Made by a program: the position numbers and the translations under genes. Shown piece by piece: positions 1-9,543 of a DNA stretch of 9,543 nt (positions are counted from its first letter, which is position 1; the number at the start of each line of letters is the position of its first letter). The notes under the pieces were generated by a model, which saw nothing but the letters and a program-made list of their open reading frames with translations, had not been told where the DNA came from and searched no databases. This stretch comes from Desulfobacterales bacterium (GTDB lineage Bacteria; Desulfobacterota; Desulfobacteria; Desulfobacterales; UBA5852): assembly GCA_030066455.1 (NCBI GenBank), contig JASJBQ010000175.1:1-9543 (forward strand), written 5' to 3'.

Positions 1-249
1 GTGGGCTATGTGGTCTGGCTGATGCGCGGCGGGATGCTCTTAAGTTCTCTGCTGTCCTCCCTGCCGGCCTGGCAGCTTCTCGACCCGCTGCCGATTCTGG
101 CCCGCCGCAAAGATGACGACAACAACGATGACGATGAATCGCTCGAATCCATTCTGGAGCGCAAACCCGACCCTCCCGATCCGCAGACCAGGCCTGTCGG
201 CGGATCCGGAGATCACCGGTGGTCAAGAGATAAGACATGCGAAGACTAA
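1..249 (+). CDS. C-terminal end of a large (probably surface/adhesin-like) protein, 5' truncated
   Basis: The frame is open at the left edge and stops with TAA at 247-249. The GTG at position 1 is taken as an internal Val codon rather than a start. The visible 82 residues begin with a hydrophobic, Leu/Ser-rich segment (VVWLMRGGMLLSSLLSSLP, then AWQLLDPLPIL). Next come a basic ARRK, an acidic run (DDDNNDDDESLESILE) and a Pro/Arg-rich polar end. A hydrophobic segment, positive residues and a polar tail suggest a C-terminal membrane anchor with the tail in the cytoplasm. From memory, similar LLSSLPAW..DPLP endings occur on giant repeat-containing proteins (DUF4347, cadherin-like or VCBS types) in marine proteobacteria. 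That assignment is an inference, because none of the repeat region is in the window. Codon use matches the neighbours. The gene overlaps the kinase start by 13 nt in another frame, so the two are probably translated from one mRNA. Confidence 0.65.
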   Translation: MGYVVWLMRGGMLLSSLLSSLPAWQLLDPLPILARRKDDDNNDDDESLESILERKPDPPDPQTRPVGGSGDHRWSRDKTCED

Positions 250-3182
250 GCGTCAAATTCCGGGTCGTCCTCGGATTGGTCGGCCTGACCGTCTGTATCG
301 CCATGCTGGCATTTTATGCGGGCTTCATACCGGACAAGACCGCCATCGTGCGGGAGAGCCGCAAGGCGCTGGCCGAAACCATCGCCATTCACAGTACAGC
401 CCTGGTGCTGACCAACGAATTCCAGCGTCTGGCCGCCGATTTCAAACTGCTGGCCGCGCGCAACGCTGATCTGATCTCCCTGGGGCTGCGCCGCGTCGAC
501 GGCCGGTCGCTGATCGCCAGCGACGAGCACGATGGGCTGTGGCAGAGCATGGAAGGCGAATACTCCAAAGACACGCAGGTCCGTGTCCCCATCTGGGCCG
601 GGGAAATGAAATGGGGGCAGCTGGAACTGCGTTTCAAAACGTTGCAGCAGGATGGGCCCGGTCTCATTTTCGCTCATCCGGTCGTGCGGCTAACGTTGTT
701 CCTGGGCGGGCTTTGTTTCCTGGCCTTTTACTTCTACATCGGCAAGGTGCTGCGCCATCTGGATCCCTCCAAGGCCATCCCCGGGCGGGTACGATCGGCG
801 CTCGATACCCTGGCCGGCGGTCTCCTGGTGCTCGATCGCAAAGAGCAGATCGTGCTGGCCAACAAGTCTTTCGCCGGGCTGCTTGGCAAAACCCCGGAGG
901 ATCTATTGGGCTATCGGGCCGGCGACTTGCCCTGGATTGCACCGGAAGGCGGCCGTGTCGAAAAAGGTGACCGGCCCTGGAACCGGGCCCTGACCGCGGG
1001 CGAAGTCCAGGCCGCGCGCATCCTGCGTCTGCAGATGGCGGGCCGCGAGCCCCTCACGTTCAGCATCAACGCATCGCCGGTACCGGGCGCGGAAGGCAAA
1101 TATGCCGGTGTCCTGGTGAGCTTCGACGATGTGACCGCTCTGGAGAAAAAAGAGGTCGAACTGCGGCGCTCCAAGGAAGAAGCCGAAAGCGCCAACCAGG
1201 CCAAGAGCGCGTTTCTGGCCAATATGAGCCACGAAATCCGCACCCCCATGACGGCCATCCTGGGCTTCACCGAGATCCTGAAACGCGGTTACGACCGCAA
1301 CCGCGGGGACAGTCTCCGGTATCTCGACACCATCCACTCCAGCGGCCACAACCTGCTCGAGCTGATCAACGACATTCTCGATCTTTCCAAGGTGGAGTCG
1401 GGGCGGCTGGAAATCGAGAAGGCCTGGAGCGAACCGCACCGCATCATCGGCGATGTCCTGCAAGTCCTTAACATCAACGCGCGTGAAAAGGGTCTGGCCC
1501 TCAATTTCGAGGCCCGGGGCGATCTTCCGCAGCGGATCATGACGGATCCGGCCCGCTTTCGGCAGATCGTTTTCAACCTGGTGGGCAATGCCATCAAATT
1601 CACCGCCCAGGGCGAGGTTCGCGTGCTCTGCCGTTTCGACGCTTCCGCCGGTGCCCCCCGGCTGCTGATCGCCATCGTCGATACCGGTATCGGTATTGCG
1701 GCCGACAAGCAGGAATCGATATTCGACCCCTTCACCCAGGCCGACGCCAACGTTACCCGCCACTTCGGGGGCACAGGTCTGGGGCTGGCGATCAGCCGCA
1801 GGTTCGCGCGGGCCCTGGGCGGCGACATCACGGTCGAGAGCCGACCCGGTGAGGGCAGCACCTTCACGGTGACGTTAGGCACCGGCGATGTCGACGGCGT
1901 GCCCTTGCTCACGCCGCAGGCGGTGGCCGCGGCGACGGCGTCATGCGTCGAAGTCGAGCCGTTGCGCTGGCAGTTTCCCGCGGCCCGGATCCTGGTGGTC
2001 GACGACGGGGCTGAAAACCGCGAACTGTTGCGCCTCTTTCTCGAGGAGGCAGGGGCCACGGTGGAAGAGGCCGCAAACGGCCAACAGGGTGTGGAATCCG
2101 CCTTGGCGGCGGATTTCGACGCCATCCTGATGGATGTCAACATGCCGGTCATGGACGGCTTCAGCGCCACACGCAAGTTGCGCCGGCAGGGCGTATCCAC
2201 CCCGATCATCGCCCTGACCGCCAATGCCATGAAAGGATTCGAACAGGAATGTCTGGAAGCCGGCTATTCGGGTTATTTTTCCAAACCCATCGACATCGAC
2301 CGACTGATGCAGCAGATGGCGGGTCTGCTGGGCGGCAAACCACTGGAGACCACAACCGACACGGCCCCGGCTGAGGTCCTTGCGGATGAGCGCGTTGCGG
2401 CGGTGCCCGATATGGACCGCGCGCCGATCGTTTCGACCCTGCCGGCCAACAACGAGCGCTTCCGCGATCTCGTGGCACGCTTCATCGAACGGCTGCACAC
2501 GCAACTCGACGCGGCCCGGCAATCCCACGACGAGGGCCGGATCACGGAACTCGCCGTTTTTGCCCACTGGCTCAAGGGCGCCGGCGGCAGTGTCGGATTC
2601 GATACGCTGACGGCACCGGCCAACAAGCTGGAAGCGCTGGCCAAGGCGGGCGGCCCCGGTGAGGAGATCGCCCGGACCTTGGAAACGATGCAGGCCATCG
2701 CCGCCCGTCTGGCCGCCCCCGGCACGGCAACGCCCGAAGCGTCATGCACCCCGGTCGGCGATACGGCGGGCAAATCCATGCCCAACAGGGTGATGCAGGC
2801 CGTCTTGTCGGACACGGTGTCGCCCGTGACTTCGCGATTGGCGGGCAATCCCCGCCTGCAGACGGTGATCGGCAAGTTTATCACCAAACTTGGCTCGGAG
2901 CTTAAAAGGGCGCAGTCGGCGCTGGACCGGGGCGATATGGCCCAACTGGCTCTGATCGCCCACTGGCTGAAAGGCGCCGGCGGCACCGTGGGGTTCGATG
3001 TGTTTACGGCGCCGGCGGCTGAACTCGAGCAATTGGCCCAAGCCGACAATGCGGCGGATGCCGGCCGGGTCCTCGAACACCTCGAATCCCTGGCAAAGGC
3101 CATCGTTCCACCGACCTTAACCCAAAACCGCAATCCGGTTGCAAGTGCCGTCGGTCATGCGCCGGTCGCCGGCAGCAGTTAA
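237..3182 (+). CDS. Hybrid sensor histidine kinase with PAS, receiver and two tandem HPt domains
   Basis: Membrane phosphorelay kinase of 981 residues. TM helices lie near 9-31 and 148-171 and bracket a periplasmic sensor of about 115 residues of unknown ligand. A PAS domain follows (about 186-300), then HisKA with SHEIRTP (phospho-acceptor H332). The HATPase part has an N-box with N447/N451, DTGIGI at 482-487 and GGTGLGLAIS at 511-520. A receiver domain (about 584-697) has D589/D590, phospho-acceptor D633, T661 and K683. Two HPt domains follow, each with AHWLKGAGG, at H777 and H909. All catalytic motifs look intact, so an active kinase and full His-Asp-His relay are expected. The ATG at 237 overlaps the end of the upstream gene; only a weak purine stretch (AGAGA, 226-230) precedes it, consistent with translational coupling. 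No DNA-binding output is present. The REC-EAL gene starts 14 nt downstream and is the obvious phosphate acceptor. Confidence 0.95.
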   Translation: MRRLSVKFRVVLGLVGLTVCIAMLAFYAGFIPDKTAIVRESRKALAETIAIHSTALVLTNEFQRLAADFKLLAARNADLISLGLRRVDGRSLIASDEHDGLWQSMEGEYSKDTQVRVPIWAGEMKWGQLELRFKTLQQDGPGLIFAHPVVRLTLFLGGLCFLAFYFYIGKVLRHLDPSKAIPGRVRSALDTLAGGLLVLDRKEQIVLANKSFAGLLGKTPEDLLGYRAGDLPWIAPEGGRVEKGDRPWNRALTAGEVQAARILRLQMAGREPLTFSINASPVPGAEGKYAGVLVSFDDVTALEKKEVELRRSKEEAESANQAKSAFLANMSHEIRTPMTAILGFTEILKRGYDRNRGDSLRYLDTIHSSGHNLLELINDILDLSKVESGRLEIEKAWSEPHRIIGDVLQVLNINAREKGLALNFEARGDLPQRIMTDPARFRQIVFNLVGNAIKFTAQGEVRVLCRFDASAGAPRLLIAIVDTGIGIAADKQESIFDPFTQADANVTRHFGGTGLGLAISRRFARALGGDITVESRPGEGSTFTVTLGTGDVDGVPLLTPQAVAAATASCVEVEPLRWQFPAARILVVDDGAENRELLRLFLEEAGATVEEAANGQQGVESALAADFDAILMDVNMPVMDGFSATRKLRRQGVSTPIIALTANAMKGFEQECLEAGYSGYFSKPIDIDRLMQQMAGLLGGKPLETTTDTAPAEVLADERVAAVPDMDRAPIVSTLPANNERFRDLVARFIERLHTQLDAARQSHDEGRITELAVFAHWLKGAGGSVGFDTLTAPANKLEALAKAGGPGEEIARTLETMQAIAARLAAPGTATPEASCTPVGDTAGKSMPNRVMQAVLSDTVSPVTSRLAGNPRLQTVIGKFITKLGSELKRAQSALDRGDMAQLALIAHWLKGAGGTVGFDVFTAPAAELEQLAQADNAADAGRVLEHLESLAKAIVPPTLTQNRNPVASAVGHAPVAGSS

Positions 3183-3188
3183 AGGAAG
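3183..3188 (+). promoter_or_regulatory. Ribosome binding site of the REC-GGDEF-EAL gene
   Basis: AGGAAG lies just after the kinase stop codon, 8 nt before the ATG at 3197. It supports that start over later in-frame Met codons and implies re-initiation on the same message. Confidence 0.7.
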
Positions 3189-3196
3189 CATTCAGC

Positions 3197-4990
3197 ATGC
3201 AGGCTGCAATCCAACCCATAGCGCACAGGAACCGGGAGAGCGCCGCGGTCTTGTCCGCTAATGCCGCCAATCTCCTGCAGGCCAGGATCATGATGGTCGA
3301 TGACGAGCCGATCACCATGGAGGTCGTGCAGACCTTCCTGGAGGATGCCGGCTACCGTCACTTCATGCTGGTCGACGATCCGCGCAAGGCGCTGCGCATC
3401 CTCGAGGAACAGCGGCCGGATCTGCTTCTGCTCGATCTCAAGATGCCGGAGATCTCGGGTTTTGATATTCTGCAGACCCTGCGGGCCGACGACAGGTTCC
3501 GGCACCTGCCCGTGCTGATCCTGACATCGTCCTCGGACAACGCGGACAAGCTGCGGGCCCTGGACCTGGGGGCCACCGATCTGTTGTCCAAGCCGGTGGA
3601 TCCGAGCGAGCTTCAGCTGCGGGTGCGCAATACCCTGGCCGCCAAAGCGTACATGGATCAGCTGGCCTACTATGATCCGCTGACCAAGCTGCCCAACCGG
3701 TATTTGTTTCTGGAGCAGCTGGAGTGGTCGCTGGAAGGGGTCAAACGCAGCCGCGACAAGCTGGCCTTGCTGAGTATCGAGCTGGATCAGTTTGACAAGA
3801 TCAACGACACCTTGGGGCTTTATGCGGGTGACGATGTGTTGCGCGATCTGGCCGCGCGTATCGTCCAGGAGGTCCGCCAACCGGGTCTGCCGGAGCATTC
3901 CGGACTCGATGACGATACCACCGCCAGCCTGTTTCACATCGAGGGCGGTGTTTTTGCATTGATTCTGTGCCGCCTTCAACGTGAACGGGATGCCGCCCTT
4001 GTTGCCGGCCGCCTTCTCGAAGCCGTGAAGCAACCCATGCAGATCGGCCAGACGGAGCTCTATTTTACGGCCAGCATCGGCATTTCGACCTATCCCACCG
4101 AGGATGTGAGCAGCGTCGGCCTGCTGCAGCTGGCCTCTGCCGCCCGCGACCATGCCAAGAGCAGCGGCGGCAACATGTTTCAATTTTCGTCCCGTCAGAT
4201 CAACGTCAAATACCAGAAACGCCTCAGCCTCGAGGCCCGACTGCGCAGGGCTCTGGAACGCGAGGAGTTCGTGCTCCACTATCAACCCAAACTCGATGTC
4301 GCCACGAGTACCATCACCGGTGTCGAAGCGCTGCTGCGTTGGCAGGTCAAAGACCGCGGCCTCGTGCCGCTGCACCACTTCATACCGATAGCCGAGGAGA
4401 CCGGACTCATCGTGCCCATCGGGGAATGGGTGCTGGCCGAAGCCTGCCGGCAACTCGAAATCTGGCGGCAAAAGGGGCTGGCGCCGATCGACATGGCCGT
4501 CAACCTGTCTCCCTCGCAGTTTCAGAACCCAGAGATGCTGAGGGCCTTCCGGGAAATCATTACCGCCAGCCGGATCGATCCCCAGTGCCTGATCCTCGAA
4601 GTCACGGAGAGCGTCCTGCTGGAGGATGCCGACGCCGGTATCGAGACCATGAACCGCTTGAAGGAGATCGGTCTCCGGCTGGCCATCGACGACTTCGGCA
4701 CCGGCTATTCATCCCTGAGCTATTTAAAACGCCTGCCGCTGGACGAAATCAAAATCGATCGATCTTTTTTCGTCGACCTGTTCGAGGATAGCAAAAGTCG
4801 GGCCCTGGTATCCGCCCTGATCCATCTGGCACGGAGCATGGGCCTGGTCGCCGTGGCCGAAGGGGTCGAATCCGAGGCGCAGCTGCGATTCCTGCAGAAC
4901 GAAGGCTGCGACCAATACCAGGGCTACTTGTTTAGTCCGCCACGGCCAATGCATGAGTTGATGATGCTTTTGCCTGGCGTGGTCCCATGA
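3197..4990 (+). CDS. Response regulator REC-GGDEF-EAL, predicted c-di-GMP phosphodiesterase
   Basis: Cytoplasmic 597-residue output protein. The receiver domain (about 29-145) has D35/D36, phospho-acceptor D80, T110 and K132 (SKPVD). The GGDEF domain (about 154-333) keeps its opening signature (YDPLTKLPNR, DQFDKIND), but the active loop reads EGGVF at 249-253 instead of GGDEF, and no RxxD inhibitory site precedes it, so cyclase activity is unlikely. The EAL domain (about 344-592) has E377 in GVEALLRW, N436 in VNLSPSQF, E468 in LEVTES, D498/D499 in IDDFGTGYSS, K519 with D521 in KIDRSF, E555 in AEGVE and Q575 in QGYLFSPP. The metal- and substrate-binding residues of active EAL enzymes therefore appear present, and the expected reaction is c-di-GMP to pGpG. 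It sits directly behind the hybrid kinase and is probably phosphorylated by that kinase's HPt domains. In Caulobacter PdeA a degenerate GGDEF binds GTP and activates the EAL domain; the same could hold here (inference). Confidence 0.94.
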   Translation: MQAAIQPIAHRNRESAAVLSANAANLLQARIMMVDDEPITMEVVQTFLEDAGYRHFMLVDDPRKALRILEEQRPDLLLLDLKMPEISGFDILQTLRADDRFRHLPVLILTSSSDNADKLRALDLGATDLLSKPVDPSELQLRVRNTLAAKAYMDQLAYYDPLTKLPNRYLFLEQLEWSLEGVKRSRDKLALLSIELDQFDKINDTLGLYAGDDVLRDLAARIVQEVRQPGLPEHSGLDDDTTASLFHIEGGVFALILCRLQRERDAALVAGRLLEAVKQPMQIGQTELYFTASIGISTYPTEDVSSVGLLQLASAARDHAKSSGGNMFQFSSRQINVKYQKRLSLEARLRRALEREEFVLHYQPKLDVATSTITGVEALLRWQVKDRGLVPLHHFIPIAEETGLIVPIGEWVLAEACRQLEIWRQKGLAPIDMAVNLSPSQFQNPEMLRAFREIITASRIDPQCLILEVTESVLLEDADAGIETMNRLKEIGLRLAIDDFGTGYSSLSYLKRLPLDEIKIDRSFFVDLFEDSKSRALVSALIHLARSMGLVAVAEGVESEAQLRFLQNEGCDQYQGYLFSPPRPMHELMMLLPGVVP

Positions 4991-4992
4991 TC

Positions 4993-5009
4993 CGCCGTGA
5001 AAGACGGTG
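4993..5009 (+). terminator. Weak hairpin after the EAL gene, doubtful terminator
   Basis: CGCCGT and ACGGTG can pair, with one G-T wobble, around a 5-nt GAAAG loop starting 3 nt after the stop codon. No T-tract follows, so if it acts on transcription it is not a classical intrinsic terminator. It could only slow 3' decay, or do nothing. Confidence 0.2.
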
Positions 5010-5090
5010 TCGATGGCTGCGGCCGGCCGATGGACCTGAATGCTGTCAAATTATTGGCGCGTTGGCTGCCCCGGGGCTATAAATGATTCT

Positions 5091-5103
5091 TAACCAATTG
5101 AAA
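5091..5103 (-). promoter_or_regulatory. Candidate IHF binding site
   Basis: Read on the minus strand this is TTTCAATTGGTTA, matching 12 of 13 positions of the IHF consensus WATCAANNNNTTR (mismatch at position 2). It lies about 54 to 66 bp before the predicted transcription start, the usual place for IHF bending between an enhancer-bound activator and a sigma54 promoter. IHF sites are degenerate and the region is AT-rich, so chance is possible. Confidence 0.4.
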
Positions 5104-5129
5104 TAATGTGTAATTGAATACATAACCGC

Positions 5130-5146
5130 TTGGCATTTTGTTTGCA
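5130..5146 (+). promoter_or_regulatory. Sigma54 (RpoN) -24/-12 promoter
   Basis: TTGGCATTTTGTTTGCA contains the invariant GG (5132-5133) and GC (5144-5145) separated by exactly 10 nt, with the conserved TTGGCA and TTGC flanks of the RpoN consensus. It faces the adaptor gene. Taking C5145 as -12, transcription should start near 5157, about 52 nt before the ATG at 5209. It would drive the three-gene adaptor/protease unit. Transcription would need an AAA+ enhancer-binding protein, and none is encoded in this window. Confidence 0.8.
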
Positions 5147-5195
5147 GACATCCGTAAGGGCCATTTTGGCGAACACCAGTAAAAACGCACTCAAA

Positions 5196-5200
5196 AGGGG
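5196..5200 (+). promoter_or_regulatory. Ribosome binding site of the small adaptor gene
   Basis: AGGGG sits 8 nt before the ATG at 5209 and favours that codon over the in-frame ATG at 5224, which is too far from it. Confidence 0.65.
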
Positions 5201-5208
5201 TTTCTGGC

Positions 5209-6084
5209 ATGCGCACGAAAACCATGATTTCCAAATCGGCCGCGATTATTTTTGGGGCCGCACTCGTCGTGACGGTGATCGGTGGACCGCTGTCCTCCCG
5301 GGCCGAGACGTTGCAGGGGATTACGGCGCCCAAGGCTGACATTATGCTGTCCTTTGTTGTTCCGGGCCGGATCAGCGAGGTTCGCGTCAAGGAAGGCGAC
5401 GAGGTCGAAAAGGGCCAGGTGCTTGTCCGTCTTTATGACCAGCCTGAAAAAATCCAGTGCGAACAGCTTAAAATGCTCTCGGAGGATCAAACCAAGATCC
5501 TGGCTGCCAAGGCGGAGCTGGCACAGAAAAAAGTCGATTTGAAAAAAGTTGAGATGGCGCGTGCCAAAGGTGCCGCCAGCGACTGGGAGGTCGAGCATCT
5601 CAACCTGGACGTCCGCATTGCCGAGCTGGCGCTGAAGTCTTCCCGGTTCGAGCAGGCCCAGTATGTCCGTCGTTACCGTCATGCCGAAAGCCAGCTGGCG
5701 CTGATGCGCTTGCGGGCACCCGTGGCGGGCCTGGTGGAAGATGTCAGCGTGGAGGCCGGCGAGTCGATCGGAACCCTTGGCGCGGTCGTTCGCCTGGTTC
5801 AAAACGATCCCCTGTGGATCGATCTGCCGGTTCCCCTGGACCAAGCGGTCGAATTGGTCAAGGAGCAGGACATCTGGGTGACTTTCCCCGGTGCGGCCGC
5901 ACCGGTGAAACCCAATGGGAGGATCATCAGCATTGCCACCGTGGCGGATGCCGCCAGCGATACCCTGCGTGTTCGGGTGGAGCTCTCCAACCCGCTGAAG
6001 CGGCCGGCCGGAGAGCGCGTGGAAGTCGCCTTCTCGGCCCCGGTGGACGGGACCGACAAAGACCTGGCGCAGCTGGAGAAGTAA
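5209..6084 (+). CDS. Small periplasmic adaptor protein of the HlyD/MFP type
   Basis: A 291-residue membrane-fusion-type adaptor. The N-terminus has basic residues, a hydrophobic core (about 11-27) and SSRA just before E33, so it looks like a Sec signal peptide. There is no lipobox Cys, so the protein is either a soluble periplasmic adaptor or is held by an uncleaved helix. A first half-lipoyl segment (about 38-74, VPGRISEVRVKEGDEVEKGQ) leads into a charged coiled-coil hairpin (about 80-163). The second half-lipoyl segment (about 165-195, LRAPVAGLVEDVSVEAGESI) and a beta-barrel (about 200-278) follow. It is shorter than typical 350-450-residue HlyD/AcrA proteins, mainly because the N-terminal lead-in and membrane-proximal part are short. 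It is first in the sigma54-driven unit and 34 nt before the GAF-HlyD gene. The family bridges an inner-membrane transporter to an outer-membrane channel; neither partner is visible here. Confidence 0.87.
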   Translation: MRTKTMISKSAAIIFGAALVVTVIGGPLSSRAETLQGITAPKADIMLSFVVPGRISEVRVKEGDEVEKGQVLVRLYDQPEKIQCEQLKMLSEDQTKILAAKAELAQKKVDLKKVEMARAKGAASDWEVEHLNLDVRIAELALKSSRFEQAQYVRRYRHAESQLALMRLRAPVAGLVEDVSVEAGESIGTLGAVVRLVQNDPLWIDLPVPLDQAVELVKEQDIWVTFPGAAAPVKPNGRIISIATVADAASDTLRVRVELSNPLKRPAGERVEVAFSAPVDGTDKDLAQLEK

Positions 6085-6118
6085 TCACCGACATCCGAGG
6101 CAAAGGACCCTTCAGGCA

Positions 6119-8005
6119 ATGGATGGAGCCACGGGAAGCATAGCCGCAGGCAACTGGAATTCGGGGGACGGTAAGGGGCCTGACCAGGCCTTCGAGGCGC
6201 TCTTGGCGCGCGATATCCCTCCGGAACGATTTCTGGCTGAGCTGCTCGTCATCCAGTGCCGGCTGTCCGGAGCGCAAGCGGCTGTCATTCTGCGTGCCGG
6301 TGAAGCCGACAGCCTGGAGGTTCTGGCGGCCTGCCCACCGCCGAAGACGGCCAGCGCCTTGGACTGGGTCGCCAAGGCCGAAAAACCCTTCCGGCAATCC
6401 ATGCGCCAGGGGCAAAGCGTGGTCGTGGCGGAGGATGATGCGACCGCGAACGGCGGCTCAAACCCGAACCACCTCGTCATCATCCCGATCCGTGATCAAA
6501 GCCACATGCGCGCAGCGGCCGTATTTCGCGTTCGGGCGCGTGACCGCCATCAATGCCTGCTGATTCACGCCCGGCTCGAAAACACGGCGCTCTTGTTGAA
6601 GCATCACGAACTGGGTCTGTCGATGAAAATGCAGGAAACTGCCGCCCTGCGACTCCGGCAGGTATTCGAGGTCCTGGATGCGGTCAACCAGACCGAACGC
6701 TTCATGGGCGTGGCCATGACGCTTTGCAACGAGATGGCGACCCGGCGGGAGTGCCGACGCGTCAGTCTGGGCTTTCTCAAGGGGCGCTGCGTCGAGGTGC
6801 GGGCCATGAGCCACACCGACACCCTCAGCCGACGGACCCAAGAGGTCCAGGCGATCGAGGCGGCCATGGAGGAATGCCTCGATCAGGATCTGGAAGTCAT
6901 TCACCCTGCCGCGAAAGAGGCCCCCTATGCGTCCCGGGCGGCTGCCCGGCTTGCCGCCCGCCAGGGGCCCGCAAGCATTCTGAGCCTGCCGCTGCGCGAA
7001 GGCGGTCGTGTGGTGGCGGTGATGACGCTCGAGCGCTCCCCGGACAAGCCTTTCAAATGCCTGGATGAAATCGAAACCCTGCGGCTGACATGCGACCTGT
7101 GCACCCCCCGGCTGCTGGATCTTCATGCCCACGATCGCTGGTTCGGCGCCCGATTGGCCGCGGACGCCCGCATGCGCCTGGGATCGATCCTCGGGCCGGA
7201 GCACACGTGGGTCAAACTTGCGGCCGGCCTGACGTTTGTTGCCCTTGTATTGCTTACCACCCTTAAAGGGGACTACCGCATCAACGCCGCCTTCACGCTC
7301 AAAGCCCGCCATCAGCAGGCCGTGGTGGCGCCGTTTGAAAGTTTTTCCAAGGAAATTCTGGCCGAACCTGGGGATTACGTCGACGGCGGCAAGACGCTCC
7401 TGGGGAGGCTCGAGACCACCGAACTGCGGCTGAAACGCGCGGCCCTCATGGCCGAGCGGCTGGGTTATCGGAAACAGATGGCCGCCGCCATGCGTGACCG
7501 CCAGACCGCCGAGGCGCAGATTGCCCAGGCCCAGAGCGATAAGGTCGCCGCGCAGATCCGGTTGATCGACAGGCAGATCGCCCAGGCGAACCTGGTGGCC
7601 CCCATCAGCGGCTGGGTCGTTTCGGAAGACCTGAAACAACAGATCGGTGCACCGGTGGATACCGGCGAGATTCTGTTTGAAATTGCCCGCATCGACGACT
7701 TGCGGGCCGAGCTTTACGTTCCCGAATCCGCGATTGCGCGCGTCATGCCGGCCCAGACCGGTGAACTGGCCTCGGTGGGCCACCCCGACCAGAAAGTCGG
7801 CTTTGTGATCGAACGCATCAATCCCATGGCCGAAGTGATTGACAACCAGAATGTCTTCCGGGTTCAGGCCCGCCTGGACGAGCACCGGGAATGGATGCGT
7901 CCCGGTATGGAAGGCGAAGCCAAAATCGATGCGGGGCGAAGATCGTACCTGTGGATCGCATCCCACCGGCTGGTCGATTGGCTGCGCCTGAAACTTTGGA
8001 TCTGA
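6119..8005 (+). CDS. GAF-GAF-TM-HlyD fusion: cytoplasmic sensor joined to a periplasmic adaptor
   Basis: A 628-residue protein with no N-terminal signal. The first about 340 residues are soluble and hold two GAF-like units, a divergent one at about 36-165 and a clearer one at about 178-336 (PASILSLPLREGGRVVAVMT is its typical late strand pair). A single TM helix follows (about 364-382, KLAAGLTFVALVLLTTLKGD). The periplasmic part has a half-lipoyl segment (about 398-430, VVAPFESFSKEILAEPGDYV), a coiled-coil hairpin (about 432-488), the second half-lipoyl segment (about 490-525, LVAPISGWVV) and a beta-barrel to about 605. AAAGGA at 6102-6107 lies 11 nt before the ATG. The layout suggests that a small molecule or partner bound inside the cell alters the adaptor outside. 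The ligand is unknown. A CxxC (C325/C328) ends the second GAF unit and might be redox-active or structural. The GAF calls rest on fold-like pattern, so the first is less certain. Confidence 0.85.
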   Translation: MDGATGSIAAGNWNSGDGKGPDQAFEALLARDIPPERFLAELLVIQCRLSGAQAAVILRAGEADSLEVLAACPPPKTASALDWVAKAEKPFRQSMRQGQSVVVAEDDATANGGSNPNHLVIIPIRDQSHMRAAAVFRVRARDRHQCLLIHARLENTALLLKHHELGLSMKMQETAALRLRQVFEVLDAVNQTERFMGVAMTLCNEMATRRECRRVSLGFLKGRCVEVRAMSHTDTLSRRTQEVQAIEAAMEECLDQDLEVIHPAAKEAPYASRAAARLAARQGPASILSLPLREGGRVVAVMTLERSPDKPFKCLDEIETLRLTCDLCTPRLLDLHAHDRWFGARLAADARMRLGSILGPEHTWVKLAAGLTFVALVLLTTLKGDYRINAAFTLKARHQQAVVAPFESFSKEILAEPGDYVDGGKTLLGRLETTELRLKRAALMAERLGYRKQMAAAMRDRQTAEAQIAQAQSDKVAAQIRLIDRQIAQANLVAPISGWVVSEDLKQQIGAPVDTGEILFEIARIDDLRAELYVPESAIARVMPAQTGELASVGHPDQKVGFVIERINPMAEVIDNQNVFRVQARLDEHREWMRPGMEGEAKIDAGRRSYLWIASHRLVDWLRLKLWI

Positions 8006-8017
8006 ACGGCGGATTTG

Positions 8018-9543
8018 ATGCGCATTGAACGTTCCACATTCAGCGAATCCTGGTACCGGGTGGCGGACCTGACCCCCCGTCTGCTCGGGGCCGTCAATGT
8101 GCGGCGCCAGCATTTTCGCGGCGTCAGATGGTACATCCTGCAAGCCCCTTCCGACAGCCGGTTCTTTCGTTTAAACGAATCCGCCTATCACTTCGTGGCC
8201 CTGCTTGACGGTCGCCGCACAATCCACACGGTCTGGCGGCTGTGCATGGATCATTGCGGCGATGCCGCACCGACCCAGAACGAGGTGATTCAACTGCTCT
8301 GCCAGCTGCATGGCGCCAATCTGCTGCAGGGCAATCTGGCCCCCGATGCCGCGGCCCTGTTCAAGCGCCACCGTCAGCGCGTCTGGCGCGAAGTGCGCAG
8401 CAATGTCGGCAACCTGTTTTTCGTGCGCATTCCCCTGTGGGACCCGGATCGTTTTCTGGACCGCTGGGTGTCGCCCGTGGGCCAACTATTTTCGATCGGC
8501 GGTCTGTTGCTGTGGACGGCCATCCTGGCGGCCGGTCTGTGGGCGCTGGGCGGTCACACGGAAGCATTGAGCACCCGGGCCGCAGGGGTGCTGGACCCTG
8601 AAAATCTGCCGCTGCTGTACGCGGCCATCGTGATCGTCAAGCTGTTCCACGAATTGGGCCACGGGTTCGCCTGCAAGCATTTCGGCCGGATCGCCGGCAG
8701 CGGTGGTGAGGTGCACCAGATGGGGGTTTCCTTTCTCTTCTTCACGCCGCTGCCGTATGTGGATGCCTCCAGTGCCTGGACCTTGCGGGATAAATGGCAC
8801 CGCATCGTGATCAGCGCCAGCGGCATGCTGGTGGAGCTGGCGATCGCCGCCCTGGCCGCGGTGCTGTGGGTGCACACCGCCGCGGACGGCAGCGTCAACG
8901 CCATCGCCTACAACATCATGCTAATCGCCAGCGTATCCTCCCTGGCATTCAACGGCAATCCCTTCCTGCGCTACGATGCCTACTACATCCTTCTGGACCT
9001 CTTGGAGATCCCCAATCTCGAATCGCGTTCCAAGCTCTACGTTGGTTATCTGGTCAAACGGTATCTGTGGGGTATGGAAGCGGCCCTGGACCCCAGCCAC
9101 ACCCGCGGCGAGAAGGGCTGGCTGGTTTTTTATGCCGTGGCCGCCACGCTCTGCCGGATCATCATCCTAATGGCCATCGCGCTGGTGCTGATGAACATGT
9201 TCTTCTCGATCGGCACGCTTCTGGCGGCCGTCCTGGCCGTGCGCTGGGTGCTGATACCCCTGGGCCGTTTCGTCCGTTTTCTGGCCACCGGCCGCGAACT
9301 CGGGCGACACCGGGAGCGCGCCATTCTGACCTCGGCCCTGATCGGCGGGTTGCTGGTACTCATCACGGGTCTTGTCCCGCTGCCGGATCGCTGCCGGGTC
9401 GAAGGCGTGGTCGAACCGAGCGACTATGCCGTCGTCCACATCCAGACCCCGGGTTTCGTCGAACACGTTCTCGATACCGGCACCCGCACCGGACCGCAGG
9501 GCCCGGCCCTGGTTTCGGCGTTCAGCCCCGAACTGGAAGCCGA
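8018..9543 (+). CDS. PqqD-like / M50 site-2 protease / lipoyl-domain fusion, 3' truncated
   Basis: An open frame of 508 codons runs off the right edge without a stop. It begins at ATG 8018, 12 nt after the preceding stop, behind a weak GGCGGA. Residues about 28-125 resemble a PqqD-like winged-helix domain (WYILQAPSDSRFFRLNESAY). Several TM helices follow (about 154-176, 198-216, 263-287, 294-312, 368-392, 395-415 and 437-455). The M50 zinc site is HELGH (H211, E212, H215), with the third ligand probably D320 in NGNPFLRYDAYY, the variant seen in the putative peptide zinc metalloprotease group (YydH-like). From about 458 a lipoyl/HlyD-type segment begins (VEGVVEPSDY, HIQTPGFVEHVLDTG) and is cut. 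Family knowledge points to intramembrane cleavage or export of a peptide or protein. With two adaptors in the same operon, a role in envelope transport or processing is likely. Substrate unknown. Confidence 0.9.
   Translation, partial: MRIERSTFSESWYRVADLTPRLLGAVNVRRQHFRGVRWYILQAPSDSRFFRLNESAYHFVALLDGRRTIHTVWRLCMDHCGDAAPTQNEVIQLLCQLHGANLLQGNLAPDAAALFKRHRQRVWREVRSNVGNLFFVRIPLWDPDRFLDRWVSPVGQLFSIGGLLLWTAILAAGLWALGGHTEALSTRAAGVLDPENLPLLYAAIVIVKLFHELGHGFACKHFGRIAGSGGEVHQMGVSFLFFTPLPYVDASSAWTLRDKWHRIVISASGMLVELAIAALAAVLWVHTAADGSVNAIAYNIMLIASVSSLAFNGNPFLRYDAYYILLDLLEIPNLESRSKLYVGYLVKRYLWGMEAALDPSHTRGEKGWLVFYAVAATLCRIIILMAIALVLMNMFFSIGTLLAAVLAVRWVLIPLGRFVRFLATGRELGRHRERAILTSALIGGLLVLITGLVPLPDRCRVEGVVEPSDYAVVHIQTPGFVEHVLDTGTRTGPQGPALVSAFSPELEA

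Follow-up and report, generated by a model that had tools for sequence, protein, structure and literature searches.

The closest described counterpart of the locus analysed here is a set of SecA_DEAD, HlyD, Peptidase_M50 and GAF-HlyD genes, sometimes with an OEP gene, which was described in 2015 by Kamneva, Poudel and Ward (PMC4452313). SecA was proposed to be the ATPase and the M50 protein the membrane part, and the broader role was called completely unknown. The gene set is the same as the one reported here, with M50-HlyD beside GAF-HlyD in our window (the whole stretch of DNA that was analysed, 9,543 nt in length) and SecA_DEAD in its relatives. Methylobacterium extorquens AM1 is one carrier of the locus named in that paper. 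The 2015 work names no substrate, and the terms LEPR, giant and PqqD are absent from its text; its passages on the locus are silent on a tail, a kinase-EAL relay and a sigma54-type site, all of which were seen here.

Type I secretion systems (T1SS) share HlyD-type adaptors, TolC and giant substrates with the present system, but have an ABC transporter where we found a SecA-like ATPase and an M50 protein. The T1SS secretion signal is C-terminal, whereas the LEPR motif is N-terminal. The LapA/LapD/LapG and Dvh systems resemble our locus in pairing a c-di-GMP module with a giant surface protein of a sulfate reducer; as the relevant passages describe it, the Dvh system of Desulfovibrio uses an N-terminal retention module and a BTLCP protease that act on a T1SS adhesin (PMC13090378). 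The present locus differs from both in its C-terminal tail, its phosphorelay to an EAL protein and the position of M50 inside the exporter set. The likeness to RiPP-associated PqqD/M50 proteins (NF041824) lies in the metalloprotease family and in an N-terminal domain like that of leader binders; the M50 protein described here falls below the family cut-off, is fused to an adaptor and is encoded beside giants and a SecA-like gene. Accessory SecA2 proteins are a further parallel, being second SecAs that serve special, often large surface proteins.

The open-licence PMC literature (preprints lay outside this scope) yielded neither a substrate for the SecA-M50-HlyD locus nor an exit route for LEPR giants. 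LEPR-XLL giants are named in NCBIfam, the locus has stood without a named substrate since its publication in 2015, and each may explain the other. The machinery is already in print; a candidate substrate, reader domain, tail and relay are what our analysis would add.

Gene content of the window

The window comes from a Desulfobacterales bacterium (contig JASJBQ010000175.1, positions 1-9,543), and its closest relatives are Desulfobacterales MAGs, whose M50 proteins are 83-86% identical. An earlier note, made from the sequence alone, had named a giant protein tail, a kinase-relay-EAL set, two HlyD-type adaptors and a PqqD-M50 ORF. Reading of domains and motifs recovered each of these parts, and all six ORFs carry the domains first described (Table 1). 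Our best reading is that the window represents the left part of an exporter set for giant surface proteins, in a variant of sulfate reducers. The tail and relay of this variant also occur in some gammaproteobacteria.

Table 1. Features of the window, with two DUF3467 genes of related loci
Feature	Location	Strand	Evidence
Giant protein C-terminal end, ORF open at window start	1..249	+	Tail relatives; hydrophobic segment, PAWQLLDPLPIL motif, acidic DDDNNDDDESLESIL tail
Hybrid histidine kinase: PAS, HisKA, HATPase, REC, two Hpt	237..3182	+	Domains and motifs
REC-GGDEF(degenerate)-EAL, probable c-di-GMP phosphodiesterase response regulator	3197..4990	+	Domains and motifs
Sigma54-type -24/-12-like site, upstream of adaptor gene	5131..5145	+	TGGCATTTTGTTTGC; homologous upstream regions
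Periplasmic adaptor, RND/HlyD kind	5209..6084	+	TIGR01730, 106 bits, above cut-off
GAF-GAF-TM-HlyD adaptor: two GAF stretches, one TM, HlyD	6119..8005	+	Domains
PqqD-like + M50 intramembrane metalloprotease + start of HlyD part, open at window end	8018..9543	+	Domains, relatives
DUF3467 gene, locus L002	12747..13067
DUF3467 gene, locus L004	9681..9977

The adaptors and the M50 protein

The M50 gene, whose start was taken from alignment with relative L005 and the 508-aa database entry P0203, adjoins the GAF-HlyD gene and encodes the motifs HELGH (8648-8662) and NGNPFLRYD (8951-8977). Full-length relatives end in a HlyD-type adaptor. The zinc site was invariant in 15/15 and 50/50 aligned relatives, among them L031-L033, systems whose giant is without such a C-terminal tail. 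A fold search, the listed rows of which cover residues 442-713 and 10-105 and hardly touch the membrane part, showed that the PqqD-like N-terminal domain resembles leader binders. The best NCBIfam match of the protein, which is incomplete in the window, was the daptide metalloprotease family NF041824, at 143.6 bits and below the cut-off of 300. Together, the M50 protein, the GAF adaptor and the SecA-like protein described below look like the exporter itself.

A SecA-like ATPase and TolC beyond the window

In relatives, the gene after M50 encodes a protein of 638-689 aa with SecA_DEAD, SecA_PP_bind and P-loop_SecA domains (five tested). The SecA-like gene directly adjoins M50 in the closest relatives (L005, L006 and L016), and lay no more than 6 kb from it in 53 of the 59 fetched loci with an M50 match of at least 600 bits, a set that leaves out L027-L030 (below 190 bits) and L122, which is the same place as L007. 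Five of the exceptions have a SecA-like frame of 654-761 aa elsewhere in the genome (L019, L025 and L026 in G260, G265 and G266; L123 and L124 in G711 and G620); no such frame was found in the sixth, L004, which is known only as a plasmid. Among M50 loci of 300-600 bits, a SecA-like neighbour was seen in 2/17 (L128 and L129), and the other 15 comprised seven from the Desulfobacterota sample, seven planctomycete loci and L011, which is cut by a contig end. M50 was matched at E 1e-20 in 18 genomes of the Desulfobacterota sample; five of these lay below 160 bits, and seven at 333-494 bits were mapped and had no SecA-like neighbour (0/7). For the planctomycete loci, 36 regions were selected among the 65 genomes that gave an M50 match.

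The SecA-like protein aligns to residues 23-601 of Bacillus subtilis SecA and then stops, keeping the NBD1, PPXD and NBD2 regions. Because the alignment stops at residue 601, the helical wing domain and the two-helix finger, which we take to lie past this position, would be absent. SecA_SW gave no match at E 0.01 in any of four SecA-like proteins. In contrast to SecA2, the protein ends after the NBD2 region, and all four fall under every NCBIfam SecA and SecA2 cut-off (for example, 606 against 814). L011 and L016 come from a genome with an additional SecA frame of 869 aa, so the short protein is a second SecA there. The SecA-like gene is followed by adaptor or TolC genes in many loci, with TolC in the sulfate reducers, and an OEP gene was found in L005, L007, L009, L010 and others. 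The TolC-type protein of L005 (8189-10189) carries an N-terminal SPOR domain.

LEPR-XLL giants accompany the system

At their N-termini, four of five giants adjoining the system pass the LEPR-XLL model NF012209, and the fifth (L033, on plasmid W03) passes if read upstream of its annotated start. At E 0.05, 22 of the 23 genomes or records that carry M50 had LEPR matches, a few of them weak (that of G253 is a 51-aa frame at a contig end), the miss being a MAG (G249); control genomes had NF012209 matches in 1/14 at the same E value.

The association was also seen in two larger samples, Desulfobacterota and Planctomycetota; the group names of all samples (these two, Alpha- and Gammaproteobacteria) are those suggested by the named organism at each centre. 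Among 247 Desulfobacterota genomes, LEPR (E 0.01) was found in 6/6 with the SecA-M50 system and in 6/241 without it (P=3e-9, uncorrected for kinship). Among 214 Planctomycetota genomes, LEPR (E 0.001) was found in 16/22 with an M50 match of at least 640 bits and in 3/192 of the others (P=1e-16, uncorrected for kinship); with the M50 threshold at 600 bits, the count was 16/28. Leaving aside the centre genomes, which are positives by choice, the fractions were 5/5 in Desulfobacterota and 15/21 in Planctomycetota. In the Alphaproteobacteria sample, the sole close M50 among 241 genomes was that of the centre genome, 11 others reached at most 406 bits, and LEPR was present in 6/241. As a control in the Desulfobacterota genomes, an LssB-type T1SS ABC transporter above its cut-off was compared in the same way, giving LEPR in 1/12 with it and 11/235 without it (P=0.46). 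With a loose cut the fractions were 5/39 and 7/208 (P=0.026), the positives then including three genomes that have the system; minus these, they were 2/36 and 4/205.

LEPR giants adjoin the system at both Desulfosarcina alkanivorans loci, in G134 (a 15,080-aa frame), G221 (9795 aa) and G079:C21, on plasmids W01-W04, and in G261, G263, L019, L025, L144, L151 and L153; in G182 and G177 the LEPR start sits on another contig, close to its end. In L125-L127, where NF012209 has no match at E 0.001, the DUF3467 and M50 genes adjoin a gene that begins LE[SA]R[EQ]LLD, so the export signal may be wider than LEPR-XLL, of the form LExRxLL. A simple rule is countered by G087 and G091, where LEPR giants lie beside distant M50 genes and the SecA-like gene is absent. 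Overall, the co-occurrence and adjacency of the genes make LEPR-XLL giants the likely substrate of the SecA-M50-HlyD machinery.

A number of further observations concern the giants and their neighbours. The two loci without a SecA-like gene (L117 in G087 and L113 in G091) perhaps represent a SecA-less relative of the exporter system. The 15,080-aa frame (G134:C1 from ~94,700; L187, L107) starts LENRVLLSGD and ends just 5' of DUF3467, GAF-HlyD and M50 genes. In many systems without tail and relay, a small DUF3467 gene lies between the giant and GAF-HlyD genes or beside M50 (Table 1; also L105, L107, L108, L110 and L125-L129), and its product may serve the giant as a chaperone or regulator. In L003 (NZ_CP123586.1, near 183,224), the giant is annotated with a start that cuts into the LEPR motif, and the true start is probably upstream. 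In Yoonia litorea, the giant runs past both ends of a 54,994-base contig (G262:C3; L185, L186), which may be a circular plasmid cut within the giant gene. Genomes G254-G258 (Phycisphaeraceae and related MAGs) hold 8 to 15 LEPR-XLL matches each, so one exporter possibly serves many substrates. Adjacent planctomycete proteins of ~1150-1180 aa (genes at 4390-7920 in L128 and 4169-7609 in L129) have LEVREVFDAA followed by a WCPHC thioredoxin-like motif.

The giant protein tail and the kinase-EAL relay

The first ORF of the window supplies the last 82 residues of a longer protein. A 2683-aa frame of D. alkanivorans finishes in this tail (E 1.6e-22), a second frame of 3364 aa in that genome has it more weakly at its end (E 3.6e-7), and it occurs in 165 database proteins, the 120 listed being 1486-4688 aa in length; a search in plasmids gave no match. 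The suggestion in the earlier note that this is the tail of a giant protein is borne out, and the contrary case that it had named, an unrelated short upstream protein, does not apply. Its description of the giant as membrane-anchored is borderline: judged by hydropathy alone, the best 19-residue value was 1.48-1.62 in three relatives and 1.32 in the window part. Residues G, S and P are abundant in the tail segment.

A strict LEPR motif lies within the first 150 residues of 41 of the 120 listed tail-bearing proteins, and a looser form in 58 of them, against 0.005 and 0.9 expected from shuffles, and 0 and 3 of 1760 in other stretches of sequence. Of the 62 listed proteins without LEPR, several carry variants close to it, such as EEYEPRLLYSAD; others begin inside the protein. 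L037, a relative that shares both the tail and the gene order, has LEPR-XLL at 24.6 bits (NF012209 cut-off 17). A LEPR-XLL N-terminus is expected for the giant of the window, outside the sequenced stretch.

The kinase gene overlaps the last codons of the giant gene. Its product has the HisKA motif SHEIRTP (1227-1247), the REC motif LMDVNMP (2127-2147) and two Hpt motifs, HWLKGAGG (2565-2588 and 2961-2984); the protein encoded downstream has a REC aspartate, a degenerate GGDEF (AGDDV) and an EAL domain with all the motifs looked for. From histidine to EAL motifs the phosphorelay looks complete, as had been proposed. In relatives, the strict E-x-L-x-R pattern fails in 3/8, and L007, L177 and L184 each miss one of the other EAL patterns.

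A kinase gene lies 3' of the tail in 12 of the 14 tail places examined. These are 7/7 in a first group (the window, L007, L009, L010, both G079 places and the second D. alkanivorans place), and 5/7 among 102 genomes of the class of a Burkholderiales MAG, five of which have the tail, both misses being in G726. Clear cases of an EAL gene or domain downstream of the tail are the window, L007, L009, one place in G079 (where it is fused to the kinase), G789, G767 and G264; none was found after the tail in L010 and G800, and in four other places the sequence ends too soon. The SecA-like gene is also beside the tail place in G789, and the order tail, histidine kinase, EAL, adaptors, M50 recurs in L007 and L009. 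Neither a kinase nor an EAL gene was seen in the regions mapped for L105, L107, L108 and L110, loci that carry DUF3467 genes and did not match the tail.

The sigma54-type site before the adaptor gene was matched in 6/7 homologous upstream regions (the window and 5/6 relatives) by a pattern that was written after viewing the regions, follows what we take to be the -24/-12 consensus, and has one further match elsewhere in the window.

Proposed mechanism and alternatives

We consider it reasonably probable that the PqqD-M50-adaptor protein, the SecA-like ATPase and TolC export LEPR giants, and that in this lineage the C-terminal tail and the kinase-EAL relay control their display. The giant would begin with an LExRxLL (LEPR-XLL) motif, to which the PqqD-like domain of the M50 protein would bind. 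The truncated SecA-like ATPase, predicted to be encoded just past the window, would then push the chain N-terminus first into a conduit whose parts are the M50 membrane protein and the adaptor fused to it, together with the GAF-HlyD adaptor, the small adaptor and TolC; the start of the chain would probably be trimmed at the M50 site. The C-terminal hydrophobic segment and acidic tail would, in this lineage, remain in the inner membrane and hold the giant on the cell. The tail-adjacent kinase is predicted to pass phosphate via REC and Hpt to the REC-EAL protein, so that c-di-GMP levels, and with them display, could change; the exporter genes would be driven by the sigma54-type promoter.

More tentatively, and with some doubt of our own, we propose a route distinct from type I secretion. 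It would be ABC-less: a SecA-like ATPase devoid of wing and finger would drive giants, whose open frames reach 15,080 residues, with the N-terminus leading, through an M50 intramembrane protease fused to a TolC-docking adaptor, once a leader-binding domain has read LExRxLL; a C-terminal stop-anchor and a kinase-REC-EAL relay would provide a Lap-like display of reversed polarity in this lineage. If true, the model yields an export signal open to testing and gives the SecA motor a second use, in a channel built around an intramembrane protease, and the tail-kinase-EAL module would be a new kind of c-di-GMP-linked display control, in organisms that also have Lap-like systems.

The SecA-like protein might instead work with SecYEG in the manner of SecA2, the M50, GAF, HlyD and TolC proteins only moving the giant from the periplasm outward. 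Gram-positive SecA2 proteins do work with a Sec channel, and the retained NBD1, PPXD and NBD2 regions would suit such a role, but the protein ends at the equivalent of SecA residue 601, presumably without wing and finger, and lacks a SecA_SW match. No classical signal peptide was seen when the giant N-termini were inspected by eye, and we regard this arrangement as unlikely. It is very unlikely that the M50-adaptor genes process or export a small RiPP-like peptide, with the giants as neighbours or immunity factors. The daptide metalloprotease match and the leader-binder-like PqqD domain point in that direction; however, the consistent companion is a LEPR giant, and a SecA-like motor seems better suited to a long chain.

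A Lap-like display, in which the giant exits by another route and M50 cuts the C-terminal segment to release it under relay control, draws on the G/S/P-rich tail segment and on the position of the kinase-EAL genes, which in the window, L007 and L009 separate the giant gene from the M50 gene. The earlier note had placed M50 in the position of LapG, and this part of its proposal is unsupported: since the zinc site is invariant even in systems without the tail, tail cutting cannot be the common role of M50, which we rule out as a general LapG substitute. The absence of LapD and LapG that it reported for the window holds (LapD 130 bits against a cut-off of 1020; no BTLCP domain among the families of the six proteins). 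With both results against it, Lap-like release by M50 appears quite improbable. That giant, relay and exporter belong together, the other part of the proposed link, is favoured by the kinase-tail pairing and the recurring gene order. As for our preferred reading, export by the SecA-M50 machinery, we also considered an ordinary T1SS in its place and rejected it, no ABC transporter being present among the six ORFs of the window or the annotated system genes of L002-L004. In L003, an unrelated ABC importer lies ~8 kb further on.
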